A DNA stretch of 34,545 nt from Candidatus Thorarchaeota archaeon. GTDB lineage: Archaea; Asgardarchaeota; Thorarchaeia; Thorarchaeales; Thorarchaeaceae. The DNA lies in assembly GCA_016840825.1 (NCBI GenBank), contig JAEORN010000024.1:1-34545 (forward strand). Reading direction: 5' to 3'. A model generated the notes under the pieces. The model was not told the origin of the DNA and ran no database searches. It was given only the letters and a program-made list of their open reading frames with translations. The position numbers and the translations under genes are program-made. Below, in pieces: positions 24,476 through 34,545 of the stretch. Position 1 is the stretch's first letter, and each line of letters opens with the position of its first letter.

Positions 24476-24647
24476 CTTGGTTCACATGAGATAGAGGGCG
24501 AGTTCTTTAGATAAGGCTTGGTTTATAGCAGAGAACGGGTCCAGCTTTCCCATTCCTTTGGTTCATCCTCAGTCGAAGGAACTATAAGCAGGGCACTTTC
24601 CAAACAACCCCGCTGGCAAGACCTTAGCAGTCTAGAGGTTGTTTACG

Positions 24648-25889
24648 ATGCATTTTGAAGAGTCGGATGAAGAACGAATGTTCCGCGAGGCAGTGCGTGA
24701 GTTCGCTCAGAAATACGTCGCTCCCGAGTGGAAGAAGTATGATGAAGAGTCTCACGAGATTCCCAGGAGTCTCGTGAAGAAAATGGCAGAGCAGATGCTG
24801 TGGGCACCTACTGTGTCAGAGGAGAATGGTGGAGCCGGGCTCTCATGGGTAATGGCTTGTATTGCCGCAGAGGAACTTGCGAAGGCAGACCTCTCCATTG
24901 CGCTTCCAGTCATGTATCTCGTCGAGGCCTCATGGGCATTCATTTTCGACAGATACGGTACAGATGAGGCAAAGGCTGAGATCCTTCCAAAGGTCACTAG
25001 TGGAGATCTATTCTTTGGTATCGCTACTACCGAGCCTACTGGTGGATCAGACCTTGTCAACTCGACCAAGACCACTATCAAGCCAAAGGGTGATGGATAT
25101 GTCATCAATGGTGAGAAGGTGTATATCTCAGGAGTCAATGAGTCAGAGAAGTATGGTGGTGTCTACTGGACACTTGCTAAATCAGACCTGAAAGGCGACC
25201 ATAAGGCGTTCGACGCATTCATCCTTCCATTGAACATGGGTAACGGATTGAATCCGGGCATTACGACCACGCTCTTTGAGGACATGGGTCGAATGGGTGT
25301 CTCATGCGGTGGCTTCAATATCGAAGATGTCGAGATTCCCAAGCACTACTTGATCGGTGAACATGGCAAGGGCTTCTATCATGCCATGGAAGGCTTTAGC
25401 GCAGCCAGAGTGTTGATCGCTGCCACTTGTCTTGGTGCTGCACAGGCCTGCTTCGATATTGGTGTCGACTATGTCAAGCAACGCAAGCAGTTCGGTCGTC
25501 CGCTAGCAGCCTTTGAAGGAATTCAGTTCGAGGCTGTTGACTCATGGATGGCATTACAGGGAGATAGGCACTTGACCTATCACGCAGCTTGGATGATGGA
25601 CGAGGTATACGGTAAGGGCAACAAGGCTTACAACAAGCTCGACATTGCCAAGTACACCGCTGCAGCCAAGTACAAGGCACCTCACGATGCGCTTGATATC
25701 ATCACTCGTGCGATGACCTGGCATGGTGCGTTCGGCTACTCCAAGGAGTGTCCGCTCGAGGCTTCCTACAGAGGTGTTCGCTCATACACCGTTGGTGCTG
25801 AGGGTGGTAGCCATGTGCAGAAAATCGTTATGGCTAGGGAAATCTTCGGACCTGATTACTTGCCTTACAGACAAGAGAAGCAGATGTAG
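24648..25889 (+). CDS. Acyl-CoA dehydrogenase; its 3' end recurs downstream
   Basis: A 413-residue flavoenzyme that desaturates acyl-CoA thioesters. The N-terminal helical domain carries FREAVREFAQKYVAPEW; FGIATTEPTGGSD is the FAD/substrate loop; FSAARVLIAATCLGAAQ and QRKQFGRPLAAFEGIQF are the C-terminal helical signatures. The catalytic Glu is probably that in VGAEGGSHVQK, aligning with the YEGT Glu of MCAD. I chose ATG 24648 over TTG 24639. The last 22 codons (25824-25889) are the parent of at least five downstream copies. ACTATAAGC near 24583 may be the TATA box. The precise substrate is unknown. Confidence 0.9.
   Translation: MHFEESDEERMFREAVREFAQKYVAPEWKKYDEESHEIPRSLVKKMAEQMLWAPTVSEENGGAGLSWVMACIAAEELAKADLSIALPVMYLVEASWAFIFDRYGTDEAKAEILPKVTSGDLFFGIATTEPTGGSDLVNSTKTTIKPKGDGYVINGEKVYISGVNESEKYGGVYWTLAKSDLKGDHKAFDAFILPLNMGNGLNPGITTTLFEDMGRMGVSCGGFNIEDVEIPKHYLIGEHGKGFYHAMEGFSAARVLIAATCLGAAQACFDIGVDYVKQRKQFGRPLAAFEGIQFEAVDSWMALQGDRHLTYHAAWMMDEVYGKGNKAYNKLDIAKYTAAAKYKAPHDALDIITRAMTWHGAFGYSKECPLEASYRGVRSYTVGAEGGSHVQKIVMAREIFGPDYLPYRQEKQM
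25824..25889 (+). repeat. Repeat copy 0: 3' end of the acyl-CoA dehydrogenase gene
   Basis: The last 22 codons, ending REIFGPDYLPYRQEKQM and TAG, are the in-gene version of the dispersed repeat. Other copies start to resemble it exactly at the ATC codon at 25824 and share nothing upstream of it. Confidence 0.9.
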
Positions 25890-25904
25890 TTTCAAGTTTC
25901 AATC

Positions 25905-25925
25905 GAGAGAGGGTCTTCCTCTCTC
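25905..25925 (+). terminator. Terminator hairpin of the acyl-CoA dehydrogenase gene
   Basis: GAGAGAGG and CCTCTCTC form a perfect 8-bp stem with loop GTCTT, 15 bases after the stop and followed by a T-rich run. Hairpins at the same offset follow repeat copies 2, 4 and 5. Confidence 0.6.
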
Positions 25926-25973
25926 TTTCATTCTTTGGTCAGTTAGGAGATTCTAAGAATGCAGTTGAATAGG

Positions 25974-27251
25974 CTAAGACCGCTCCCTGATGAACTCCTC
26001 GAACAAAGGGCGAATCCTTTCATCAAGCATATCAGACGTGATTCTCATACGGAAAGTATACTCCTCTTTGAACTTCCAGACCAGTTTCCCCTTTACCTTA
26101 ACATAGTCAGTTTCATCGTGAGGCATCTCCGTTGAGATGTTGAACTCCATTGCTCCATCTTGATGTACACGCTCCAATTTGATGTGTGACGGAAAACGCC
26201 CCCTGAACCTAACGAACTCTACCAGTTGAGATGTCAGAATATCCACCGCCTCACTCTTCGTGATCGGAACGAGCCCATTGTGGTGTACTCTGAAATAGCA
26301 GATTTCAGACTCCTGTTCCCACAAACTCGCAGTTATGACAACGGCATCAACAGGAACACTGACATTTTTCACCTCTTGCGGCTTTCCCATGAGTGGTACA
26401 TAATAACCTAAGGCTTCCTCTCGAATGTATTCAAAGGATTGCTTGTCAATATAGACGAAATCGAATACATCAACGCCTGAAGGAGAGGAGATTTCAACCA
26501 CCTGCAGGTTATCCGTTACGGCAGGATCCTTCTCTTCATCGAATAGTACCTCCAATCCAAGTGGACCGTATCCCGGATAATCGGTAGGGACTTGAAGTTT
26601 GATGACATAGAGACCCCACCAGTCCATTATGTAGGGGCCCTTCTTCCTAATCAGCTGTGAATTAATGGTCCACCAGAACGGTAAAACGCCTTTGTCATAC
26701 AGTTCCTTGATTCGATTTTGGAAGGTTCGCCAGTCCATAATCTCCGAGTTCGACTCATAGCAATTCTTGACATCTCTGCAGATTGATATGTAGTTCGTTA
26801 GTTTCCATTGGCCGCTCTTGTTCTTAGCCACCTGCAATGCTGTGGACTCGTCCCTACCGCCGCTCTTGATGTGTATTGTTGTCAGCCCAAGGTCATCCCT
26901 ATCTTCGCTCATAACAGTCATTGTGAGCTTGCCCCTGTCAATCTGATAGTTGTTCTCAGAAGTCCCGCCGATATAGGAGCGTGCGATGTTCTTGTTCCCC
27001 CGGAAATGTCCTAGGCAGTTCTTGGCGATGTCGTCAAGCTTGAAACCAGAGGGAAACGAGCCATCCTCGATACAATGCCACTCGGCGATAACAACGGACA
27101 TCATGGCTTCTGAAAGCTTGGGATCCTCCTCAGCATTGAGAGCAGCAATCAGGTAGTACATGATAGACTCCTCAGGAGAACCTGCGTCCTTCTCCCACTC
27201 ACTCTTGAACTCCGAGAAGGAGGTGATCATCTTCTTGATGACTTCGGTCAT
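25974..27251 (-). CDS. Unknown cytosolic protein with bacterial DUF6935-like N-terminal region
   Basis: A 425-residue protein in the first cassette. Residues ~20-150 (ESIMYYLIAALN, then ARSYIGGTSENNYQID, LTTIHIKSGGRDESTALQV, SGQWKLTNY) resemble a domain I know from Firmicutes proteins, I believe DUF6935, with its A-R-S-Y-F-x-G-A-T-P-E-N-N-Y pattern. The remaining ~270 residues, with paired Trp motifs and alternating strands, are unrecognised. I chose ATG 27251: CTTTTATATTG (27282-27292) lies 36 bases upstream, and ATG 27266 would precede the predicted transcript start. There is no signal peptide. It converges on the dehydrogenase. Confidence 0.65.
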   Translation of the reverse strand: MTEVIKKMITSFSEFKSEWEKDAGSPEESIMYYLIAALNAEEDPKLSEAMMSVVIAEWHCIEDGSFPSGFKLDDIAKNCLGHFRGNKNIARSYIGGTSENNYQIDRGKLTMTVMSEDRDDLGLTTIHIKSGGRDESTALQVAKNKSGQWKLTNYISICRDVKNCYESNSEIMDWRTFQNRIKELYDKGVLPFWWTINSQLIRKKGPYIMDWWGLYVIKLQVPTDYPGYGPLGLEVLFDEEKDPAVTDNLQVVEISSPSGVDVFDFVYIDKQSFEYIREEALGYYVPLMGKPQEVKNVSVPVDAVVITASLWEQESEICYFRVHHNGLVPITKSEAVDILTSQLVEFVRFRGRFPSHIKLERVHQDGAMEFNISTEMPHDETDYVKVKGKLVWKFKEEYTFRMRITSDMLDERIRPLFEEFIRERS

Positions 27252-27281
27252 CTGACAAAACCTCATTTACTGATTATCCAG

Positions 27282-27292
27282 CAATATAAAAG
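27282..27292 (-). promoter_or_regulatory. TATA box of the DUF6935-like gene
   Basis: CTTTTATATTG on the minus strand is a strong archaeal TATA box, placed to start transcription near 27261, ten bases before the chosen ATG. Confidence 0.55.
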
Positions 27293-27306
27293 AATTCCTT
27301 CCAAGG

Positions 27307-27336
27307 TCTAGGTCACGATGTCATATAGGACCTAGA
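27307..27336. repeat. Inverted repeat abutting repeat copy 1
   Basis: TCTAGGTC (27307-27314) and GACCTAGA (27329-27336) form a perfect 8-bp inverted repeat with a 14-base spacer, ending 2 bases before copy 1. It could be a recombinase arm site or a terminator. Confidence 0.4.
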
Positions 27337-27338
27337 GG

Positions 27339-27383
27339 ATCGTCATGGCACGGGAAATCTTCTGCCCTGACTATCTGGAGTAG
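27339..27383 (+). repeat. Repeat copy 1 (decayed): acyl-CoA dehydrogenase 3' end
   Basis: It encodes the start of the repeat (IVMAREIF), then CPDYLE and TAG. Relative to the gene it has Gly to Cys and a 12-base in-frame loss before GAG. The downstream terminator is not recognisable. Similarity starts at the same ATC codon as in the other copies. Confidence 0.8.
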
Positions 27384-27469
27384 GATTTGAATTATAGTGC
27401 AGATCATTGCAACAAGTATAGAGCCTTGCAGGATGGTTATCAATGTCGAGTACAAAATGACAAAGGCTC

Positions 27470-28480
27470 TCATAGGACAGACTCAGTTCCGAAGGAGCTT
27501 CGTCGAATTATATCAGAATCATCTAGTAGACCAGATTCAATCAGTATATCTTCTAGTTTTAGGCGCAGTGGGAAAATATTGCCAACAACTCTAGGATAGG
27601 AAACAAAATCCTCGATTGATTTGATGAAAGATGCTTCCTTTAGATCCCTTATAACCGGAATCACTTTACCTGGGTGATCAATAATCAGGCCTACATCTAC
27701 GACTGGTTCGTTGGTGGTTATGCTAGACCACCAGAATTCCTCTGGGTATTTTTGGTACAAATCCATAATAATATCCTGTGCACTTGCTTGTGATGGATCA
27801 AAATGGATTTTCAATCGATATTCCATGTCTCCCAATGCGAATATATTATAACCAACAGTAATGTGGATGCCTTCGCCTTCTTCTAACTCGCGTAGGATTT
27901 TTCGGACCCGCCTTGGAGTAAAGCTTGTTCTCTGTGCAATTTGTGCAACTGGCATTCGAGCGTTTTCATATAAGCACCTCAGCACTCTTAACTGATGATG
28001 TGTGAATGTAACCTTCTTTCCTCGCGTATTCAAATGATAGTTGGGGGACTTATTTGGAAAAAGAAAGATAATAGGCCTCATTTCTACATCAACTGTGCCT
28101 TTGAGCTCTTCAAGATACTTCTTGAGACCTAATGCTTCAGAAACACCGGACACCATTGCCCAGTATTCATAACGCATATCACCAGTACGGTAAATCTCAC
28201 ATACAATACGTTGCTTGGCGACTTCTCTCATGAATTCCACTACTTTCTCAGTTCCATCTGTAGAAATCACACCATGTACATGTTCCGCGCCTAACATTTC
28301 CATGCTCACAATAACCACAAAGCCCACAAGCAATTTCTGCTCGAGAAGCCTATGGATTCGATTCTTGACAGTATTTGGTGAAGCACCGAGTTTTCGAGCT
28401 ATCTTTTGGTAGCTCATCCGTCCATTGCCGCACAATTCGCAGATTAAGGCCCAATCCATCGAATCCAAACTACTCACCAC
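27470..28480 (-). CDS. Lrp/AsnC-type regulator with two winged-helix domains (second paralogue)
   Basis: A 336-residue protein with the same plan as the one at 3501. A first winged helix (MDWALICELCGNGRMSYQKI, then SPNTVKNRIHRLLEQK) is followed by an alpha/beta segment, a second winged helix (LRVLRCLYENARMPVAQIAQ, then TPRRVRKILRELEEG) and a C-terminal alpha/beta segment. The start is GTG 28480; ATG 28459 is possible. An inverted repeat lies directly upstream, and GTATATAAT (minus strand, near 28570) is a probable TATA box. It is the regulator in the second cassette; its target may be the neighbouring DUF362 gene. Confidence 0.75.
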   Translation of the reverse strand: MVSSLDSMDWALICELCGNGRMSYQKIARKLGASPNTVKNRIHRLLEQKLLVGFVVIVSMEMLGAEHVHGVISTDGTEKVVEFMREVAKQRIVCEIYRTGDMRYEYWAMVSGVSEALGLKKYLEELKGTVDVEMRPIIFLFPNKSPNYHLNTRGKKVTFTHHQLRVLRCLYENARMPVAQIAQRTSFTPRRVRKILRELEEGEGIHITVGYNIFALGDMEYRLKIHFDPSQASAQDIIMDLYQKYPEEFWWSSITTNEPVVDVGLIIDHPGKVIPVIRDLKEASFIKSIEDFVSYPRVVGNIFPLRLKLEDILIESGLLDDSDIIRRSSFGTESVL

Positions 28481-28501
28481 GTTTCCGCTGACTAGGGAAA
28501 C
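28481..28501. promoter_or_regulatory. Operator-like inverted repeat at the Lrp-like start
   Basis: GTTTCC (28481-28486) and GGAAAC (28496-28501), separated by 9 bases, adjoin the GTG start. They are spaced about two helical half-turns apart, as expected for a dimeric winged-helix regulator. Autoregulation is inferred. The rest of 28502-28831 holds a TATA-like box and the hairpin at 28716-28755, and no other gene. Confidence 0.35.
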
Positions 28502-28715
28502 GAATCCAAGTTGTCAGAGAGATTTGAAAAGCATGTAAGCTACCTTGTTCCCAACAGCTTATGCAATTATATACGACGTTTTGTTAATAAAACTCCCTTC
28601 TAAGTGAATATTTTGCAATGAGTAATAGCTAATGTTGCTAATGTGCCCAGTTTTCTACCGTTTTTGCTACTAACGCCTCCCCATCCCTGATATTCTAGAT
28701 GGTGGTACAATAGAT

Positions 28716-28755
28716 TGCAATATACTAGTCGCAGCAAGCGACTTGGGGTATTGCA
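28716..28755. other. Two-tier hairpin upstream of the small membrane ORF
   Basis: TGCAATA (28716-28722) pairs with TATTGCA (28749-28755). Inside, AGTCGC (28727-28732) pairs with GCGACT (28738-28743) around the loop AGCAA. It could be a terminator, a leader structure or a small RNA; no family is recognised. Confidence 0.4.
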
Positions 28756-28831
28756 TGAGTTCGAAACAACAACATTTGCAGATTTTCAGGAGAGGCGAGC
28801 CTGACAAGTACATAGCATATCCAGGTGATAC

Positions 28832-29077
28832 ATGATGAGTAGACAGGAAGAGCTTAGCAGCATCAGCCTCCTTGCAGGAGTGATACTGGTCATGGACTGG
28901 TCCCCTACACCAGAGTACATTATCGCAGCGACAGTCACTGTCTGCGTCCTGCTGATGCTCTATATAATGGTATACGGTGGTGGTGATGGAAAACAAGGAG
29001 TTCGCTCTCAGGTTCCACCGGCGGGTCCTGAAACCGCAACAGATTTTCAATGTATGATGGTTGCAGTGCCCATATGA
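28832..29077 (+). CDS. Possible small two-helix membrane protein
   Basis: An 81-codon ORF with a short polar start, a weak hydrophobic stretch (LLAGVILVMDW) and a strong helix (YIIAATVTVCVLLMLYIMVYGG), then a Gly/Pro-rich tail. AGGTG lies just before the start; a second ATG is the next codon. It has no recognised family. The helix content argues for a real gene, but the tail may be non-coding. Confidence 0.4.
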   Translation: MMSRQEELSSISLLAGVILVMDWSPTPEYIIAATVTVCVLLMLYIMVYGGGDGKQGVRSQVPPAGPETATDFQCMMVAVPI

Positions 29078-29348
29078 GCGGCGAGACTATTTGGTACGAG
29101 TCAGTACCATTTTCAGGAGCTCCTCATTACGAACCAGGAACCTTCAGAATCAACTAGAACCAACCAAGTTGCAACGAAATGCGAAGCTCGGAGGCGCATG
29201 GTGTAAATCAAGATGCCTCTCCTTTTTTCCCACTGCTGCGCTCAATTGCTCCGAACCAAACCTAATTTGTTATAGGAGAGGAGTGTATGTACTTGGTAGT
29301 ATTGCCAATAAACCACGCCATGATTTGAAGTGCTGGTGAGCAGTGATA

Positions 29349-30335
29349 ATGACCATTGTATCCATTGTACAAAACGATCATATTAGGACCGCTGTTGAAG
29401 AATCAGTTAAATTGCTTGGCGGGGTTGAGAGTTTTGTACAACCTCAGGATAAAGTGGTAATTAAACCAAACCTAGTTTTCGGTTTGCCGCCATTTACAGG
29501 ATTCACAACGGACCCACCAGTTGTTCAAGCCATTATTGAACTGTGTCAAGACGCGGGCGCTTTTGATGTGACGATAGCTGAGGGGTCAAGTTGTATTGAT
29601 ACCAAGCTGGCATTCAGAGTATGTGGATATGTAGAGTTAGCTGAGAAATATGGTGTGAAGTTAGTAGACTTGAATGAGAGTCCGACAAGAGATGTTGCTG
29701 TCCCAAAGGGTCAGTCTATCCATGAGCTTCAAATTCCAAGAGTCATACTTGATTGCGATGCGCTAATCAACATGCCAAAGCTCAAGCTATACAAACCGGT
29801 TTCAGAAAAGAGTGAATGGGCTAGCTTGGCAGTCAAGAATCTTATGGGAGCCCTTCCTGGTAGGGGAGAATTCTCACACAATCGGCCTTCGGGATTCTGT
29901 CTTCAACTCTCCCAGGAGTTCTTGAGCACGGAGGGTAAGTACTACCATTCCGCCTATCGTCAATGGTGGAGTCCAAGTGGAGAAAAAAAACGAATTCATA
30001 GGAATCTTGGTCAAGGATTGGTCGACCTTAACATGGCACTCAGACCAACTCTCAACATTATTGATGGCATAATTGTAAGCAGTGATGTGGATATGACAAA
30101 GACGGTAGGTCAAGAGCCATTTGATCTCAGTACAATCCTTTGTAGTCAGGATCCTCTTGCTCTTGATTTCATCGCAGTAAAAATCGCTGGGTTGAATCCT
30201 TTTAATATATCATATCTCAAACACGCAGCAGAGAGAGGGTTGGGCGAATCAGACTACAATTGCATTCAAGTGCTTGGAACTCCAATAGCTACAATAATCG
30301 AGGCTTGGGAAAAAGAACTGAAAATTCATGGATAA
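29349..30335 (+). CDS. DUF362 family protein
   Basis: A 328-residue protein. VVIKPNLVFGLPP with TDPPVVQAIIELCQDAGAFDVTIAEGS, then ALINMPKLKLY, ASLAVKNLMGALPG, and LNIIDGIIV with QDPLALDFIAVKIAGLNP are the signatures of DUF362. Many members also carry a C-terminal ferredoxin; this one does not. The function is unknown; the family is often linked to iron-sulfur or redox metabolism. I chose ATG 29349, with GGTGAG 10 bases upstream; GTG 29343 is an alternative. It is the last gene of the second cassette. Confidence 0.85.
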   Translation: MTIVSIVQNDHIRTAVEESVKLLGGVESFVQPQDKVVIKPNLVFGLPPFTGFTTDPPVVQAIIELCQDAGAFDVTIAEGSSCIDTKLAFRVCGYVELAEKYGVKLVDLNESPTRDVAVPKGQSIHELQIPRVILDCDALINMPKLKLYKPVSEKSEWASLAVKNLMGALPGRGEFSHNRPSGFCLQLSQEFLSTEGKYYHSAYRQWWSPSGEKKRIHRNLGQGLVDLNMALRPTLNIIDGIIVSSDVDMTKTVGQEPFDLSTILCSQDPLALDFIAVKIAGLNPFNISYLKHAAERGLGESDYNCIQVLGTPIATIIEAWEKELKIHG

Positions 30336-30452
30336 CCAAACCACAGAAAAAAGAGCCAGTTCGGTTTTGCGTAATTATTGACACAATGAATATCATCATC
30401 ACGACTTCCTCGGTCCTGATGATTTGCCATTCCAACCAGAGGAACAGATTTA

Positions 30453-30518
30453 GTTGTCACAGGCAGAGAAATCTTCGGACCTGACTGCCTGCCGTACAGA
30501 CAAGAGTAGCAGATGTAA
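30453..30518 (+). repeat. Repeat copy 2: acyl-CoA dehydrogenase 3' end with internal stop
   Basis: Full-length 22-codon copy: GREIFGPDCLPYRQE, then an in-frame TAG where the gene has Lys, then CAG ATG TAA. Two non-synonymous changes near the start (Thr, Gly for Met, Ala) and one Tyr to Cys show decay. The terminator hairpin is kept. Confidence 0.85.
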
Positions 30519-30529
30519 TTCTGATAGTT

Positions 30530-32095
30530 TCAAGGGAGCGTAAGAGCTCCCTCTTTCTTCTTTCGCAAGATGACGAAGGCTCCTAAACAAAATACCAAAG
30601 TTGCCAAAATCACGGGGGAGATAAATACTAGGAAATCGTCAACCTGTGAATAACTCTGAGTTAAATTGCCAGCAATAACGATCACACCGGAGCTTCCTGT
30701 AGTTTCGAAGTAAATTGACGAAAATGATTCATTATGGCTTTCAGAGAAATCGAGAAGGTTACCATCGATCATGACCCTGTATGGATTTGGTAGAATCTCT
30801 CGCGGGAAGGTCACGTTGCAGTATCCTAGAGAGTTGTCACTGCTACTTATTATGAACCTGAGTTGATTCGCAGATTCGTTCATTGTGAATTCATGAACGC
30901 TAAGGTTTGTATCTATACTATTGAAGATGCATAATTCTGAATGAAATTTCCTAAATTCCTTCAAGGAGGGTTTTGCATCATAATCATTGTGAAAGACAGA
31001 GAAGTGAGGAAAAATAGCAGATTCTAAATCAGGTCGAGTTTCTGGAAGATGATAGTCAGGTGCATAGTAGAAGGCGCCCACAAGATTCTCGAAATTGTAA
31101 ACCCATCTCAGAAAATCCTCAATGAATCTAGCTTGGCCTTCATCAGTTAATGGATATTCATCAACAGCTTTGTTATATTCAGCCATTGTAGAGCTAGGCG
31201 CACTAGGATATGCGTATTCAGTGATCAGAATATCCAAATCAAGTCTAGTGAGCTCTTCAATGCATAACTTGAGACTAGAGAATGTAGCCTGCTCATTATC
31301 TCCTTGCCAAGTCGGATAGAAACTGAGACCTGCAAAGTCGAAAGGGACACTCCTATCAAGCATAAATTGAAAGAATTCTCGCACAAATGAAGGGCGGTTA
31401 GATATTGCCATATGCAATTGTATCTTAGCATCAGGATCAGCTCGCTTTATCCCTGCAATTGCACCTTTCAACATCGTTGCTTCACTAGCCCATGTGTTGC
31501 TCTTCAGCCAATTAGTATCAAACCAATCAACGGAACCATCAATTGGAGGCCGCTCATCCACAATACCAAAATCAATCTCATTTCCAGCATCATATAATCC
31601 GATTTCTATCCCTTGACTCTGATAATAGTCAACAATAAAGAAGCATGAATCATTCAATGCTTGAGCTTTTTCGTTTATCGACATATTCTCCATCCAAGGA
31701 GGACACGGCTGCTGACCAGCGTGAGCAGGCATATGACTTAGAAAGAAGAAGAGATTTGAATTCATGCCATTCTCCTGAGAAGCTCTCAAAACTTCAGCTG
31801 AGTAATAAACACTACACCATGAATCAGTCGATTGAAGGTCTGAATTGTTGTCAAATCGTACGCCAACACGGTTCCATGACACACCATTAGTTGAAAGTGC
31901 TTCTAGAGGATCTACTTGACTCCAAAATCCACCCCAGTTCTTAAGCCCTAACCAATCATCTGCTTGAACACCAATAAAGAAGTCCTTCGGACTCTCAAGC
32001 GGACCATGAGAAGTAATTGTGTTGGAGATAGATGTGAGGTTAGTGAGCGCCAGCAGAATAATCAAACATGTTGACAGGTACTTCAACTGATACAC
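30530..32095 (-). CDS. Secreted, anchored GH53-like glycoside hydrolase (endo-galactanase family)
   Basis: A 521-residue protein with N-terminal signal segment, catalytic TIM barrel and C-terminal helix (VFISPVILATLVFCLGAFVIL) followed by RKKK. Hallmarks of GH53 or a close clan GH-A family: acid/base Glu173 in YDAGNEIDFG, nucleophile Glu293 in ITEYAYP, and FAGLSFYPTWQG. GH53 enzymes cut beta-1,4-galactan. Residues ~390-480 look like an accessory beta domain. The start is GTG 32095, with GTCATATAAC 25 bases upstream (leaderless). The stop lies just before the terminator stem of repeat copy 2 and the last codons run through it. Confidence 0.75.
   Translation of the reverse strand: MYQLKYLSTCLIILLALTNLTSISNTITSHGPLESPKDFFIGVQADDWLGLKNWGGFWSQVDPLEALSTNGVSWNRVGVRFDNNSDLQSTDSWCSVYYSAEVLRASQENGMNSNLFFFLSHMPAHAGQQPCPPWMENMSINEKAQALNDSCFFIVDYYQSQGIEIGLYDAGNEIDFGIVDERPPIDGSVDWFDTNWLKSNTWASEATMLKGAIAGIKRADPDAKIQLHMAISNRPSFVREFFQFMLDRSVPFDFAGLSFYPTWQGDNEQATFSSLKLCIEELTRLDLDILITEYAYPSAPSSTMAEYNKAVDEYPLTDEGQARFIEDFLRWVYNFENLVGAFYYAPDYHLPETRPDLESAIFPHFSVFHNDYDAKPSLKEFRKFHSELCIFNSIDTNLSVHEFTMNESANQLRFIISSSDNSLGYCNVTFPREILPNPYRVMIDGNLLDFSESHNESFSSIYFETTGSSGVIVIAGNLTQSYSQVDDFLVFISPVILATLVFCLGAFVILRKKKEGALTLP
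30533..30552. terminator. Terminator hairpin following repeat copy 2
   Basis: AGGGAGC and GCTCCCT form a 7-bp stem with loop GTAAGA, followed by CTTTCTTCTTT. The stem is identical to that after copy 4, although the loops differ. The minus-strand GH53-like gene ends inside it. Confidence 0.6.
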
Positions 32096-32115
32096 CCTAA
32101 ATGCTTCCTAAAGGA

Positions 32116-32125
32116 GTTATATGAC
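32116..32125 (-). promoter_or_regulatory. TATA-like box of the GH53-like gene
   Basis: GTCATATAAC on the minus strand is centred about 25 bases before GTG 32095, predicting a leaderless mRNA and supporting that start. Confidence 0.4.
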
Positions 32126-32164
32126 GATGCATACGAATAAATTTTCGGGAATAAGAGATGAATA

Positions 32165-32230
32165 ATTGTCATGGCAAGAGAAATCTTCGGACTTGACTAT
32201 CTGCCATACAGGCAAGAGAAGGGAATGTAG
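32165..32230 (+). repeat. Repeat copy 3: acyl-CoA dehydrogenase 3' end, open frame
   Basis: All 22 codons stay in frame (AREIFGLDYLPYRQEKGM, TAG). Against the gene I count nine synonymous and two amino-acid changes (Pro to Leu, Gln to Gly). The usual terminator is replaced by a T-rich stretch (GCTTTTTCCCCTTTTC). Confidence 0.9.
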
Positions 32231-32380
32231 TATGATTGCGGAATAGTATGCTTTTTCCCCTTTTCTTCCTTCGCATCCAATATGATTCTGCGATTTTATT
32301 GGTTGATGGACCTGAAGAGGAAAAATTAAGATAAGTTAAAAGTATATTTGACCTAAAGCAAAGAAGGTGGAGTGAGATTA

Positions 32381-32800
32381 ATGTCAAAGATTGAGAATCC
32401 GCCCAGAATTGCTGTATGCCCTTATTGTGGAGCTTCTATCTATGGGTCTCAAGTACCCTTCGGTTGGACAGAATGGAATTGTGATAATGCTAAATGTCAA
32501 AGCAAATGGCATAGAGGTGTTTTCATGGTTCTTTCTTTTATCGTCGCGAGTCGTGATAAAAGGGGATTAGGAAAAAACAGAGGTGTCATGTGGAATATAA
32601 GATATAATACGAATGAGAATGAAGGGGTTGTTAGTTTCAAAACATTCAATAGAAGCATCCTATTGAAACACAAAGATGTATTGCTTCTATCATTTAAGAA
32701 ACACTCTAAGGGATTATTCGATAAGCAATGGACAGGCGAATGGAAAAGAGAACCCGGCAAACTAGTCAATGTCAACCTAAACACTACATGGAATATATGA
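32381..32800 (+). CDS. Zinc-ribbon protein, function unknown
   Basis: A 139-residue protein. The N-terminal zinc ribbon has CPYCG and, about 20 residues later, CDNAKC. The rest is a basic region with strands (VMWNIRYNTNENEGVVSF, LLKHKDVLLLSFKKH) of no known family. I chose ATG 32381, with GGAG 8 bases upstream; GTG 32372 is an alternative. AAAGTATATTTG near 32340 is a plausible TATA box. It is the only clear gene in the fourth, ~0.75-kb cassette. Confidence 0.6.
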   Translation: MSKIENPPRIAVCPYCGASIYGSQVPFGWTEWNCDNAKCQSKWHRGVFMVLSFIVASRDKRGLGKNRGVMWNIRYNTNENEGVVSFKTFNRSILLKHKDVLLLSFKKHSKGLFDKQWTGEWKREPGKLVNVNLNTTWNI

Positions 32801-32913
32801 TCAGTGAATCATGCTGTTAATCATAGCTCGACTTCAGGAAATTCGTAAAGAAACCACGATGAAGTTGCGTAATGCAGAATACTCACGGTTCAATTGGGAG
32901 TGTGTACACCATG

Positions 32914-32979
32914 ATCGTCATGGCACGGGAAATTTTCGGACCAGATTATTTGCCTTACAGACAAGAGAAACAGAGGTAA
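32914..32979 (+). repeat. Repeat copy 4: acyl-CoA dehydrogenase 3' end, open frame
   Basis: All 22 codons stay in frame (AREIFGPDYLPYRQEKQR, TAA). Against the gene there are seven synonymous changes, one amino-acid change (final Met to Arg) and TAG to TAA. The palindrome GTGTACAC (32902-32909) lies just before it. The surrounding 32801-33152 has no other supported gene. Confidence 0.9.
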
Positions 32980-32995
32980 AGAATATTCAGTTTCA

Positions 32996-33014
32996 AGGGA
33001 GCTTCGTGCTCCCT
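32996..33014 (+). terminator. Terminator hairpin following repeat copy 4
   Basis: AGGGAGC and GCTCCCT form a 7-bp stem with loop TTCGT, 16 bases after the stop of copy 4 and followed by pyrimidine-rich sequence. Confidence 0.6.
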
Positions 33015-33152
33015 CATTCCTCTTTTCATACAACAATGGTCTTTGATACCCAAATTCATTCCCATTGTATGCCTAAAAAAGATGGATTGATATCCATTCA
33101 TTTCATACACTCTATCTGAATTCTTACATGATATTATAAGAAGTGATTGAAG

Positions 33153-33371
33153 ATGGGAAAGAGAGGTGTTGCCAGTGGCGTTTTGGTTCTCTTATTCGGT
33201 TTGCTCCTAGTTATCGACGACCTCCACGATTTTGTAGCAGGTACGGACTTTCTGCACTTTTTGCCAGACTTCGATCCGTACTTCATCATGGGATTTCAAT
33301 TGCACCATCTCTACATTGGTGCCCTGATTATGATCATCGGACTAGTGATAGCAGCCAAGTATCGGGACTAA
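33153..33371 (+). CDS. Small two-helix membrane protein
   Basis: A 72-residue protein. A basic start (MGKRG) is followed by helix 1 (VASGVLVLLFGLLLVI), an acidic, aromatic and His-containing loop (DDLHDF, LPDFDPYFIMGF) and helix 2 (HLYIGALIMIIGLVIAA) ending KYRD. Family unknown. TTG 33147 is an alternative start. It is the sole gene of the fifth, ~0.5-kb cassette. Confidence 0.6.
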   Translation: MGKRGVASGVLVLLFGLLLVIDDLHDFVAGTDFLHFLPDFDPYFIMGFQLHHLYIGALIMIIGLVIAAKYRD

Positions 33372-33430
33372 TAGGTCAAGTCAAGCATTCCTCATCAGTA
33401 AGTGGTTACTACAGATTGAACCAATAATAA

Positions 33431-33467
33431 GACTACTCTACTGTACAGGCAAGAGAAGCAGATGTAA
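33431..33467 (+). repeat. Repeat copy 5 (5'-truncated): acyl-CoA dehydrogenase 3' end
   Basis: Only the last ~12 codons remain. GACTAC, with a one-base insertion, leads into YRQEKQM and TAA. The first ten codons are gone or unrecognisable, but the terminator is very well kept. The rest of 33372-33723 holds no supported gene. Confidence 0.8.
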
Positions 33468-33478
33468 TTCTTATTTTC

Positions 33479-33507
33479 AAAAAAGGGGTGTTATGAGCCC
33501 CTTTTTT
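33479..33507 (+). terminator. Strong terminator following repeat copy 5
   Basis: AAAAAAGGGG and CCCCTTTTTT form a perfect 10-bp stem with a 9-base loop, followed by a T-rich run. It lies 11 bases after the stop of copy 5. Confidence 0.75.
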
Positions 33508-33690
33508 CTCTCTTTTTCTTGTGCCCATTTATCAAACGTCGGACATCACGTACATCTATGGTATATCCATATTCGTCATACAATGATGAATATTACTGGA
33601 TTCCTGTTCCCTCTACTGCGATATGGGATTTTTTGAAAATGAACAAGCTCTTTGTTCATAAAGCTACCATTATCCTTATAGACTTCATTA

Positions 33691-33700
33691 GCATATATTT
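33691..33700 (+). promoter_or_regulatory. TATA-like box of the CHAT-like gene
   Basis: GCATATATTT is centred about 28 bases before the TTG at 33724, the spacing of a leaderless archaeal transcript. Confidence 0.4.
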
Positions 33701-33723
33701 TGGAGGTACTTCGGTACCGGTGG

Positions 33724-34545
33724 TTGGAGATAAAAAAAGATAGAAGAATACTCGTTGTAGTGTACTTCATGGTTCCCATGTTTATCATGACGATGTTCCT
33801 TCCCATACTTGTGAACATCCAACAGATGGAGTTGGCGAACCAAAACGAAAAGAATGTATTGCTCTTTCAAAGAGTGATACAGAGAAAAATGGGGTTGATG
33901 ACTCCTGTTTCAACGTCAGATGCCGTTCACGTAGATTACGATGCGGTAATGGAAGTCCTAGATGATATCCCAGTTGCATACCTCATCAAAGATACTGCTA
34001 CTGGCTCTGCTGCTACCATTAGCAAGTTACAGAGCTTCTTGAGTGGTACAGACAGAGCGCATATAGCGGCTCATGGCTCTTGGACTTCAGGGTATTCAGT
34101 CGTTGACTTGTATGGTACGGATCTAAAGTACTCAGTTGTACACCTATGGGGAAATCAAGGCTTGAGATGCAAGGTACTTGTCCTCAGCGCATGTAATAGC
34201 ATGGGCCATGATGGAACACAAAGCAATACTCTTGCAGCAGAGATTATCGCTAAATCCGGAATTCTGCAAGTCATCGGCTATAAAGACGTTGTCGATGCAG
34301 GAGGTGCTGCGATATATGCTGGAATCTTCTGGCAGCAACATCTCTGGGCAAATGGAGCGAGTGGTGGAGTTTCGTCAGATGATGCATATGATGCTGCAAA
34401 GAATTCGTTACTTGAAGTGGTTGAGAATCAAGCCATTGAGATGCTTTGGGTGGCACTTCTTACAGGAATCATAATTGGAGTCATAGGTACAGTCCTTGAG
34501 GGTTTGGGCTTTCCAGGTCTTCAAGTTAGTATTTTCCTTCTGGTG
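33724..34545 (+). CDS. Membrane-anchored CHAT/caspase-like (clan CD) protein, cut by right edge
   Basis: An open frame of 274 codons running off the window. I chose TTG 33724, which gives a basic N-terminus (EIKKDRR) and then an anchor helix (ILVVVYFMVPMFIMTMFLPILV); ATG 33769 is an alternative. The catalytic pair of clan CD proteases is visible: His117 in AHIAAHGSW and Cys157 in KVLVLSACNSMG, followed by AAEIIAKSGILQVIGY as in CHAT domains. A further membrane helix begins near 243 (LWVALLTGIIIGVIG). Such proteases often act in defence or regulated cell death; that role here is inference. Confidence 0.65.
   Translation, partial: MEIKKDRRILVVVYFMVPMFIMTMFLPILVNIQQMELANQNEKNVLLFQRVIQRKMGLMTPVSTSDAVHVDYDAVMEVLDDIPVAYLIKDTATGSAATISKLQSFLSGTDRAHIAAHGSWTSGYSVVDLYGTDLKYSVVHLWGNQGLRCKVLVLSACNSMGHDGTQSNTLAAEIIAKSGILQVIGYKDVVDAGGAAIYAGIFWQQHLWANGASGGVSSDDAYDAAKNSLLEVVENQAIEMLWVALLTGIIIGVIGTVLEGLGFPGLQVSIFLLV

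Follow-up and report, generated by a model that had tools for sequence, protein, structure and literature searches.

Repeated 3' ends of the acyl-CoA dehydrogenase gene

The DNA analyzed here is a stretch of 34,545 nucleotides from a Candidatus Thorarchaeota archaeon, referred to at its full length as the window. On the + strand it carries a gene for an acyl-CoA dehydrogenase (ACAD) whose 3' end recurs downstream as a series of copies, with unrelated open reading frames (ORFs) forming cassettes between them (Table 1). A preliminary description had placed further ACAD tails at 27339, 30453, 32165 and 32914 and a truncated one at 33431, all on the + strand, and each of these was recovered; a seventh, diverged copy at 30404-30449 was not on its list. 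Its statement that four fuller copies start alike and share nothing upstream had to be narrowed: the full copies do share one start base (ATCGTCATGG...) and nothing clearly ACAD-like was found upstream of them, but the copy at 27339 is a 5' half copy only. The genes between the copies are functionally unrelated, as it had said (DUF6935, AsnC-type regulator, DUF362, GH53-like and a small protein without Pfam match).

Ungapped comparison of the 66-nt tail with the downstream part of the window gave 57, 53, 52, 39, 36 and 34 matches of 66, as compared with a best value of 33 in 40 block-shuffled sequences and of 30 on the reverse strand. Beyond the stop codon the similarity extends to about +115 and takes in a terminator-like hairpin; such a hairpin lies 3' of most of the fuller window copies. 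A known RNA element was rejected as the identity of the repeat because an Rfam search of window positions 24500-34000 (E up to 0.5) returned zero matches.

Table 1. Coordinates of the ACAD gene, its 3'-end copies and the cassette ORFs in the window.
Position	Strand	Feature	Basis
24648..25889	+	ACAD, host gene of the repeated 3' end	Pfam Acyl-CoA_dh_1/N/M
25824..25889	+	attached functional copy (last 21 codons of ACAD and stop)
25890..25948	+	terminator-like hairpin and T-rich run, part of the repeat unit
25974..27266	-	cassette 1 ORF, DUF6935 domain protein	Pfam PF22043 2.3e-15
27339..27377	+	5' half copy (+1 to +39), 39 nt
27470..28480	-	cassette ORF, Lrp/AsnC-type regulator	Pfam HTH_24, HTH_AsnC-type
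29343..30335	+	cassette ORF, DUF362 protein	Pfam PF04015 1.2e-42
30404..30449	+	extra diverged copy (model positions 17-62), immediately 5' of the 30453 copy
30453..30518	+	full displaced copy with one internal stop, then hairpin to ~30567
30530..32095	-	cassette ORF, glycosyl hydrolase family 53-like (GH53-like) protein	Pfam PF07745 1.1e-31
32165..32230	+	full displaced copy
32372..32800	+	cassette ORF, 142 aa, Cys pairs	no Pfam match
32914..32979	+	full displaced copy, hairpin to ~33035
33153..33371	+	short cassette ORF, 72 aa, membrane-like	identified by eye from sequence
33431..33470	+	3' half copy, then hairpin (to ~33520)

For comparison, 123 copies were collected, 19 attached to ACAD and 104 displaced from it; a larger set, from which copies cut by contig ends were removed, held 15 attached and 163 displaced copies. 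Compared with ACAD, 67 full displaced copies showed background identity up to position -4, values of 0.52, 0.49 and 0.37 at -3 to -1, and 0.79, 0.96, 0.69, 0.91, 0.99 and 0.93 from +1 onwards. Information content was about zero upstream, with little conservation beyond 3 nt, high across the 66 nt, modest in the hairpin to ~+115 and then zero. A gapped check detected no upstream ACAD body above the null maximum in 123 of 125 displaced copies; because the other two do carry ACAD body, the edge is common but not absolute. Clustering of half-copy breakpoints is not claimed, since detection requires ~28 matched bases.

If the copies were remnants of tandem ACAD duplicates with overwritten bodies, their resemblance to gene ends, their nearly uniform orientation and the slightly longer ACAD sequence in those two copies would follow. 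The sharp edge all but refutes this, the start base is the same across species and the cassettes differ between genomes. Relatives were checked for full-length ACAD duplicates at the copy positions, which the preliminary description had named as an outcome that would contradict insertion, and none were found; tandem duplication was ruled out on the copy edge, and we give it hardly any credence.

In the 80 gapless full displaced copies (gapped and partial copies excluded), 57% of the mismatches lay at third codon positions (bootstrap 54-59%), as compared with 68% for 13 attached ends and 33% expected without coding constraint, and an internal stop was present in 7 of the 80. Because the variation lies mostly at third codon positions, which is unexpected both for a DNA recombination site and for a duplicate undergoing decay, each displaced copy is, judged by its sequence, a former working ACAD 3' end. 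The first six bases are an exception, their synonymous sites varying less among displaced copies than among attached ends: C was found at +3 in 46/67 displaced versus 7/19 attached copies (p = 0.016) and at +6 in 62/67 versus 11/19 (p = 0.0009). The unit, which extends from a gene interior to a terminator, resembles a transcript end and would thus suit retro-insertion of ACAD mRNA 3' ends. Reverse transcriptase (PF00078) was detected in just 1 of 17 genomes examined, the start base is common and the arrays exchange at the DNA level, all of which makes retro-insertion extremely improbable.

Arrays and cassettes in related genomes

Scanning contigs for the ACAD protein gave 23 loci, of which 19 are archaeal (by record title 16 Thorarchaeota, 2 'archaeon' and 1 Lokiarchaeota) with orthologues of 78-91% identity in the best segment. 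At least three + strand copies (E at most 0.02) were present at eight loci (L001-L004, L006, L010, L011 and L017); some of the remaining archaeal loci stop shortly after ACAD. A sequence-only covariance model of the ACAD tail (R1) matched 19/19 host genomes and, at E up to 1e-3, 38 of the 47 genomes of the class (Thorarchaeota). At least three matches were found in 24 of the 47, with a maximum of 33 in G004, and in some genomes the lone match was the ACAD end itself. Phylum-wide, 35 of 227 genomes matched at 1e-6. Arrays were either led by ACAD or orphan, and the copies were confined to one strand at 47 of the 48 loci of the main set; in G010 they span ~31 kb from ACAD in a single orientation. 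As the preliminary description had anticipated, relatives carried extra copies and different cassette contents, and cassette order was not conserved. An assembly artefact was rejected because arrays recur in many independent assemblies and on a 3.16-Mb contig.

The sole locus with copies on both strands is L104 (G016:C366), with two on the + and one on the - strand. On the 2.58-Mb contig G038:C1 (L095, L096) the copies are dispersed instead of forming one array, and no ACAD match was found at E up to 1e-150. One of the genomes with phylum-wide matches, G062, lies outside the 47; the cassettes of its array (G062:C126, L142) are 94-99% identical to some in G013, G014 and G005, which may reflect bin contamination or very recent transfer.

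The main set comprised 134 closed and 48 cut cassettes (182 in all). Closed cassettes had a median length of 1.35 kb (10-90%: 0.62-3.6 kb) and held exactly one ORF of at least 90 aa in 79 cases and none in 13. Cassette ORFs lay in both orientations (93 + and 118 -). By DNA similarity with single linkage, 54 of the 182 cassettes fell into 14 families and the rest were unique within the set; by this comparison the cassettes are largely genome-specific. A Pfam scan of 145 of the 211 cassette ORFs gave 132 families, the 25 commonest of which are diverse; beta-helix, flavodoxin, ABC, PIN and DUF362 are among the families found. The DUF362 ORF of the window shares 66% DNA identity with a stand-alone cassette in G010 and G011. 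PADLOC defence matches were scattered among the 145 ORFs (AriA-like ATPases, mad3, HEC and PDC candidates, AbiLi); as these came without a control, an enrichment of defence genes is not claimed.

Cassettes shared between genomes end at copies, with differing neighbours beyond them. A 680-bp cassette is 92-93% identical between G002 and G016 and has different neighbours, the shared stretch beginning at +31 in the left copy and ending at +29-32 in the right one. G062 and G013 share a 99%-identical cassette, of which the last 86 nt and the right copy to +76 are identical and are followed by different cassettes; in G014 the same cassette lacks the following copy, and ~3.9 kb of different DNA, part of which is a cassette with another location in G062, separates it from the next shared cassette. 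One junction shows exchange inside a copy. G010 and G011 are 91% identical over 3 kb to the ACAD end and at chance level past the copy. For shared cassettes whose left copies could be compared, left-copy similarity was 0.76-0.88 in 7 of 11 cases (remainder 0.75, 0.70, 0.63 and 0.62), as compared with a mean of 0.66 for unrelated copies (5-95% 0.58-0.76). The nearest neighbour of a copy lay in another genome in 76 of 94 cases, and the 18 same-genome pairs compare with 5.9 expected. Overall, the data support recurrent ACAD-end displacement, cassette turnover and within-copy exchange.

A ~250-nt cassette end has three occurrences in G004 and a single one in each of G017 and G024, and it adjoins a copy at the same base in all of them (L091 3350, L094 1227 and 5833, L119, L082 15139). 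The first copy in G024 is preceded by a cassette also present in G004 and G017, with an identical junction, and the stretch fetched from G024 contains a 28% ACAD paralogue.

Recombinases and array endonucleases

The preliminary description had read the locus as repeated site-specific insertion into a gene 3' end, with a recombinase possibly supplied in trans. Insertion, restoration of the end and displacement of the old end held, whereas a site-specific recombinase found no support. Tyrosine recombinases (PF00589) were undetected in 29 of the 47 class genomes (control genomes 14/14 positive), serine recombinases (PF00239) in 9 of 16 genomes searched (control genomes 10/14 positive), and neither was found at E up to 0.001 in seven array-bearing genomes (G001, G003, G004, G011, G017, G024 and G034), absences that are limited by incomplete draft genomes (metagenome-assembled genomes, MAGs) and possible unknown recombinase families. 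A copy and a tyrosine recombinase shared a contig twice, ~22 kb (G010 C51) and 49 kb (G038 C1) apart. Among 40 array-locus proteins compared with Pfam, zero recombinase or transposase catalytic domains were found; no Cas1 family turned up in these matches, and no search aimed at Cas1 or casposases was made. The AsnC-type regulator of the window hits generic HTH models including the resolvase HTH_7 (25.5 bits, cut-off 23.8). The attC motif pair (RYYYAAC ... GTTRRRY) was present in 0/174 copies with flanks, with 1.0 expected from shuffles, in a crude test that used no attC folding model. A viral vehicle was rejected: viral contigs contained neither an exact match to the 23-base core of the repeat nor a relative of the array endonuclease described below (18 pattern matches, none confirmed).

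Site-specific recombination would have circular cassettes use the copy as attachment site, with a tyrosine or serine recombinase acting in trans as in integrons or accreting islands. It would account for the separate, precisely bounded cassettes and their shuffled order, for the one pair with exchange at the copy centre on both sides, for the synonymous uniformity of displaced copies at +3 and +6, which is what a DNA-level site would show, and for the two contigs that carry both copy and tyrosine recombinase. The seven genomes without either recombinase family, the scant upstream conservation, the lack of attC-like pairs, the variable breakpoints and the codon, rather than site, constraint on the copies speak against it, and we regard it as unlikely, if still a serious candidate. 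The arrays do share with integrons exchangeable cassettes and a common repeat, with shared cassettes in different orders. They are integron-like in outcome and not an integron by the features tested, because recombinases were undetected in several array-bearing genomes, attC-like pairs were lacking and the recurring enzyme is a predicted LAGLIDADG cleaver.

Arrays in seven genomes contain a LAGLIDADG homing endonuclease gene or its remnant, which in every case lies on the opposite strand and, wherever a copy is visible, 3' of it. Two of the 40 array-locus proteins matched LAGLIDADG_3 and one HNH; the G006 protein has a LAGLIDADG fold with two acidic motifs and its gene is flanked by a 67-nt, 82% ACAD duplicate. 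The LAGLIDADG enzyme is the recurring recombination-related enzyme of the examined arrays, a predicted cleaver and not a recombinase. In seven copies RQKxQ replaces RQEKQ at the end. Such recoded ends occurred in 3/6 endonuclease-adjacent copies versus 4/166 others (p = 0.0008; p = 0.0002 without the lone-copy genomes G012 and G019), in a post hoc test devised after the pattern had been seen and to which G006 is an exception. An HNH endonuclease ORF lies at L003 3353-3694, in the first cassette past ACAD, and is possibly a second type of driver.

Related endonucleases adjoin other duplicated gene ends. At 19 of 20 further loci an ORF of the endonuclease family was found, and in four of them a clear partial gene duplicate lay across it: the 5' end of a carboxylase-like gene in G042 (L127; 254 nt, 91%), the 5' end of a glycine-cleavage T-like gene in G026 (L132; 140 nt, 78%, the duplicates enclosing two extra ORFs), the 5' end of a urocanase-like gene in G015 (L134; 158 nt, 69%) and the region past the 3' end of an electron-transfer-flavoprotein-like gene in G043 (L122; 41 nt, 95%), the gene names being our reading of the sequences. 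Three of these four duplicates are at gene 5' ends. Counting ACAD in G006, five genes have duplicates flanking this endonuclease family.

These positions bear on the proposal that ordinary homologous recombination alone built the arrays, i.e. that after one or a few founding events the copies of 66-115 nt acted as homology islands and the endonuclease was a passenger. Chimeric copies and variable breakpoints fit this, as does the frequency of nearest neighbours in other genomes (same-genome pairs still exceed expectation) and the lack of an endonuclease in most examined cassettes. It leaves unexplained the common +1 start, the choice of ACAD, the restriction of the endonuclease to one side and one orientation, and the duplicated gene ends next to related endonucleases at four further genes, and we judge it improbable.

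A putative route of gene capture and its known counterparts

We lean slightly towards an endonuclease-driven gene-end replacement in which cargo is carried along and an integron-like array builds up. The array would then be a pile of former ACAD 3' ends. An incoming segment, made up of a variant ACAD 3' end with terminator and, behind it, cargo, would join the ACAD body, and the resident end would be pushed downstream and decay there. The anatomy of the copies, the codon-position pattern and the genome comparison support this joining and displacement step. A free-standing LAGLIDADG endonuclease, encoded on some segments, would start the process by cutting the ACAD 3' end, and the break would be repaired from the donor by homologous recombination, the ACAD body providing the left arm and a copy of the ACAD 3' end the right one. 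Every cassette flanked by two copies would be open to such copying, so that cargo would be mobilized in trans and cassettes reshuffled. The endonuclease gene would decay and be lost between invasions. The initiating break, the role of the copies as right-hand arm and the movement in trans are what we infer, and cleavage is putative.

Several observations weigh against this endonuclease-driven scheme. The endonuclease was found in arrays of only seven genomes, set against 134 closed and 48 cut cassettes, and most examined cassettes lack it; the intact G006 enzyme adjoins an ordinary, non-recoded end. No clear flanking duplicate was found at 15 of the 19 endonuclease loci (one 13-residue match; some flanks are cut by contig ends). 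The breakpoints of shared cassettes are not fixed: those on the left lie between +4 and +64 or else beyond +99, and those on the right between -12 and +69. Two of the 125 displaced copies carry ACAD body upstream (G011 L011 5378 and G007 L118 7909). The profile that yielded the copies of the third-position test was seeded with four coding copies of the window, which may favour the observed pattern. Pooled over genomes, copy quality showed no gradient with distance from ACAD (rho 0.04, n = 43; per genome -0.83 in G010, +0.71 in G004 and +1.0 for the four copies in G016). No general signal of replacement was seen in the ACAD tails: among 91 pairs compared between genomes, the tail had lower similarity than the body in 50. 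The tails of G016 and G001 do diverge more than the bodies, and a foreign origin of the attached end is supported for these two genomes only. The array on the 3.16-Mb contig of G024 (L082-L083) had no ACAD match at E up to 1e-150, which means that arrays can lack the host gene. MAG incompleteness weakens the scheme further.

The closest precedent is the fungal mitochondrial mobile ORF (mORF), described in sections of PMC3630166 for Glomus atp6, atp9, cox2 and nad3 and for Allomyces atp6. As presented there, the inserted element encodes an endonuclease, which in Glomus is of the LAGLIDADG type in three of the four cases; the element sits at a gene 3' end and brings its own C-terminus, and the native end is displaced downstream. 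Displacement of the native end by a replacement end was found here as well, in the displaced former ends and the G006 duplicate. The present arrays differ in their archaeal chromosomal location, in comprising tens of units with mostly unrelated cargo without endonuclease, in the convergent endonuclease gene and in a new end with its own terminator. The array may thus work like an mORF; it is not filed as a member because the endonuclease is present in cassettes of seven genomes and not in most cassettes.

Archaeal integrons and clusters of attC sites lacking integron integrases (CALINs), as outlined in the relevant parts of Ghaly 2022 (PMC9668308), likewise have mostly single-gene, strain-specific cassettes and a repeated separator, and occur in Asgard archaea. 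Here the repeat is a protein-gene end under coding constraint, genes lie in both orientations, and neither attC-like pairs nor a consistent tyrosine recombinase were found. An array accreted by serine recombinases is not indicated either, PF00239 having been undetected in the 9 of 16 genomes given above. Thaumarchaeota 3'-end integrations and tandem casposons in elongation factor 2 share the protein-gene 3'-end target, the restored frame and the tandem arrangement; the portions of PMC6563490 that treat them describe short att sites or target-site duplications and tandem pairs, as compared with a ~115-nt repeat and far longer arrays here. In SegB segmental amplification, free-standing phage endonucleases drive copying of neighbouring genes, also in trans, and according to the pertinent part of PMC13096335 the same segment is amplified in phage, whereas here unrelated genes are captured at a recoded gene end. 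HeimM2 of Heimdallarchaeum is an Asgard mobile element with a homing-endonuclease-like gene and a cargo gene; the passages of PMC8813620 devoted to it place it between the genes for a 16S rRNA and a tRNA and mention no repeated gene end or array. The literature entries listed, at the level of titles and abstract openings and with few subscription journals, yielded no account of such arrays or of gene-end duplicates beside archaeal endonucleases.

It is still an open question by which routes Asgard archaea acquire foreign genes, and in the passages of PMC9931769 on this point integrons are named merely as a possible route. The ACAD 3' end is a recurrent, class-wide insertion hotspot, superintegron-like, with the integron enzyme undetected in several array-bearing genomes. 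Conceivably, though with somewhat less confidence than the scheme itself, Thorarchaeota possess a gene-capture system unlike integrons, in which homing endonucleases with conserved gene ends as their targets made the ACAD 3' end a docking site and any DNA flanked by ACAD-end versions would be copied in by break repair without a recombinase, giving arrays of up to 33 copies. If homing endonucleases drive the process, selfish DNA would supply a general route of gene acquisition, and past insertions could be read from each array as from a fossil record. One protein and one 66-base target make this a clean test system.

Past the last detected copy, an ORF with a CHAT domain lies at window positions 33700-34545 and extends off the window.

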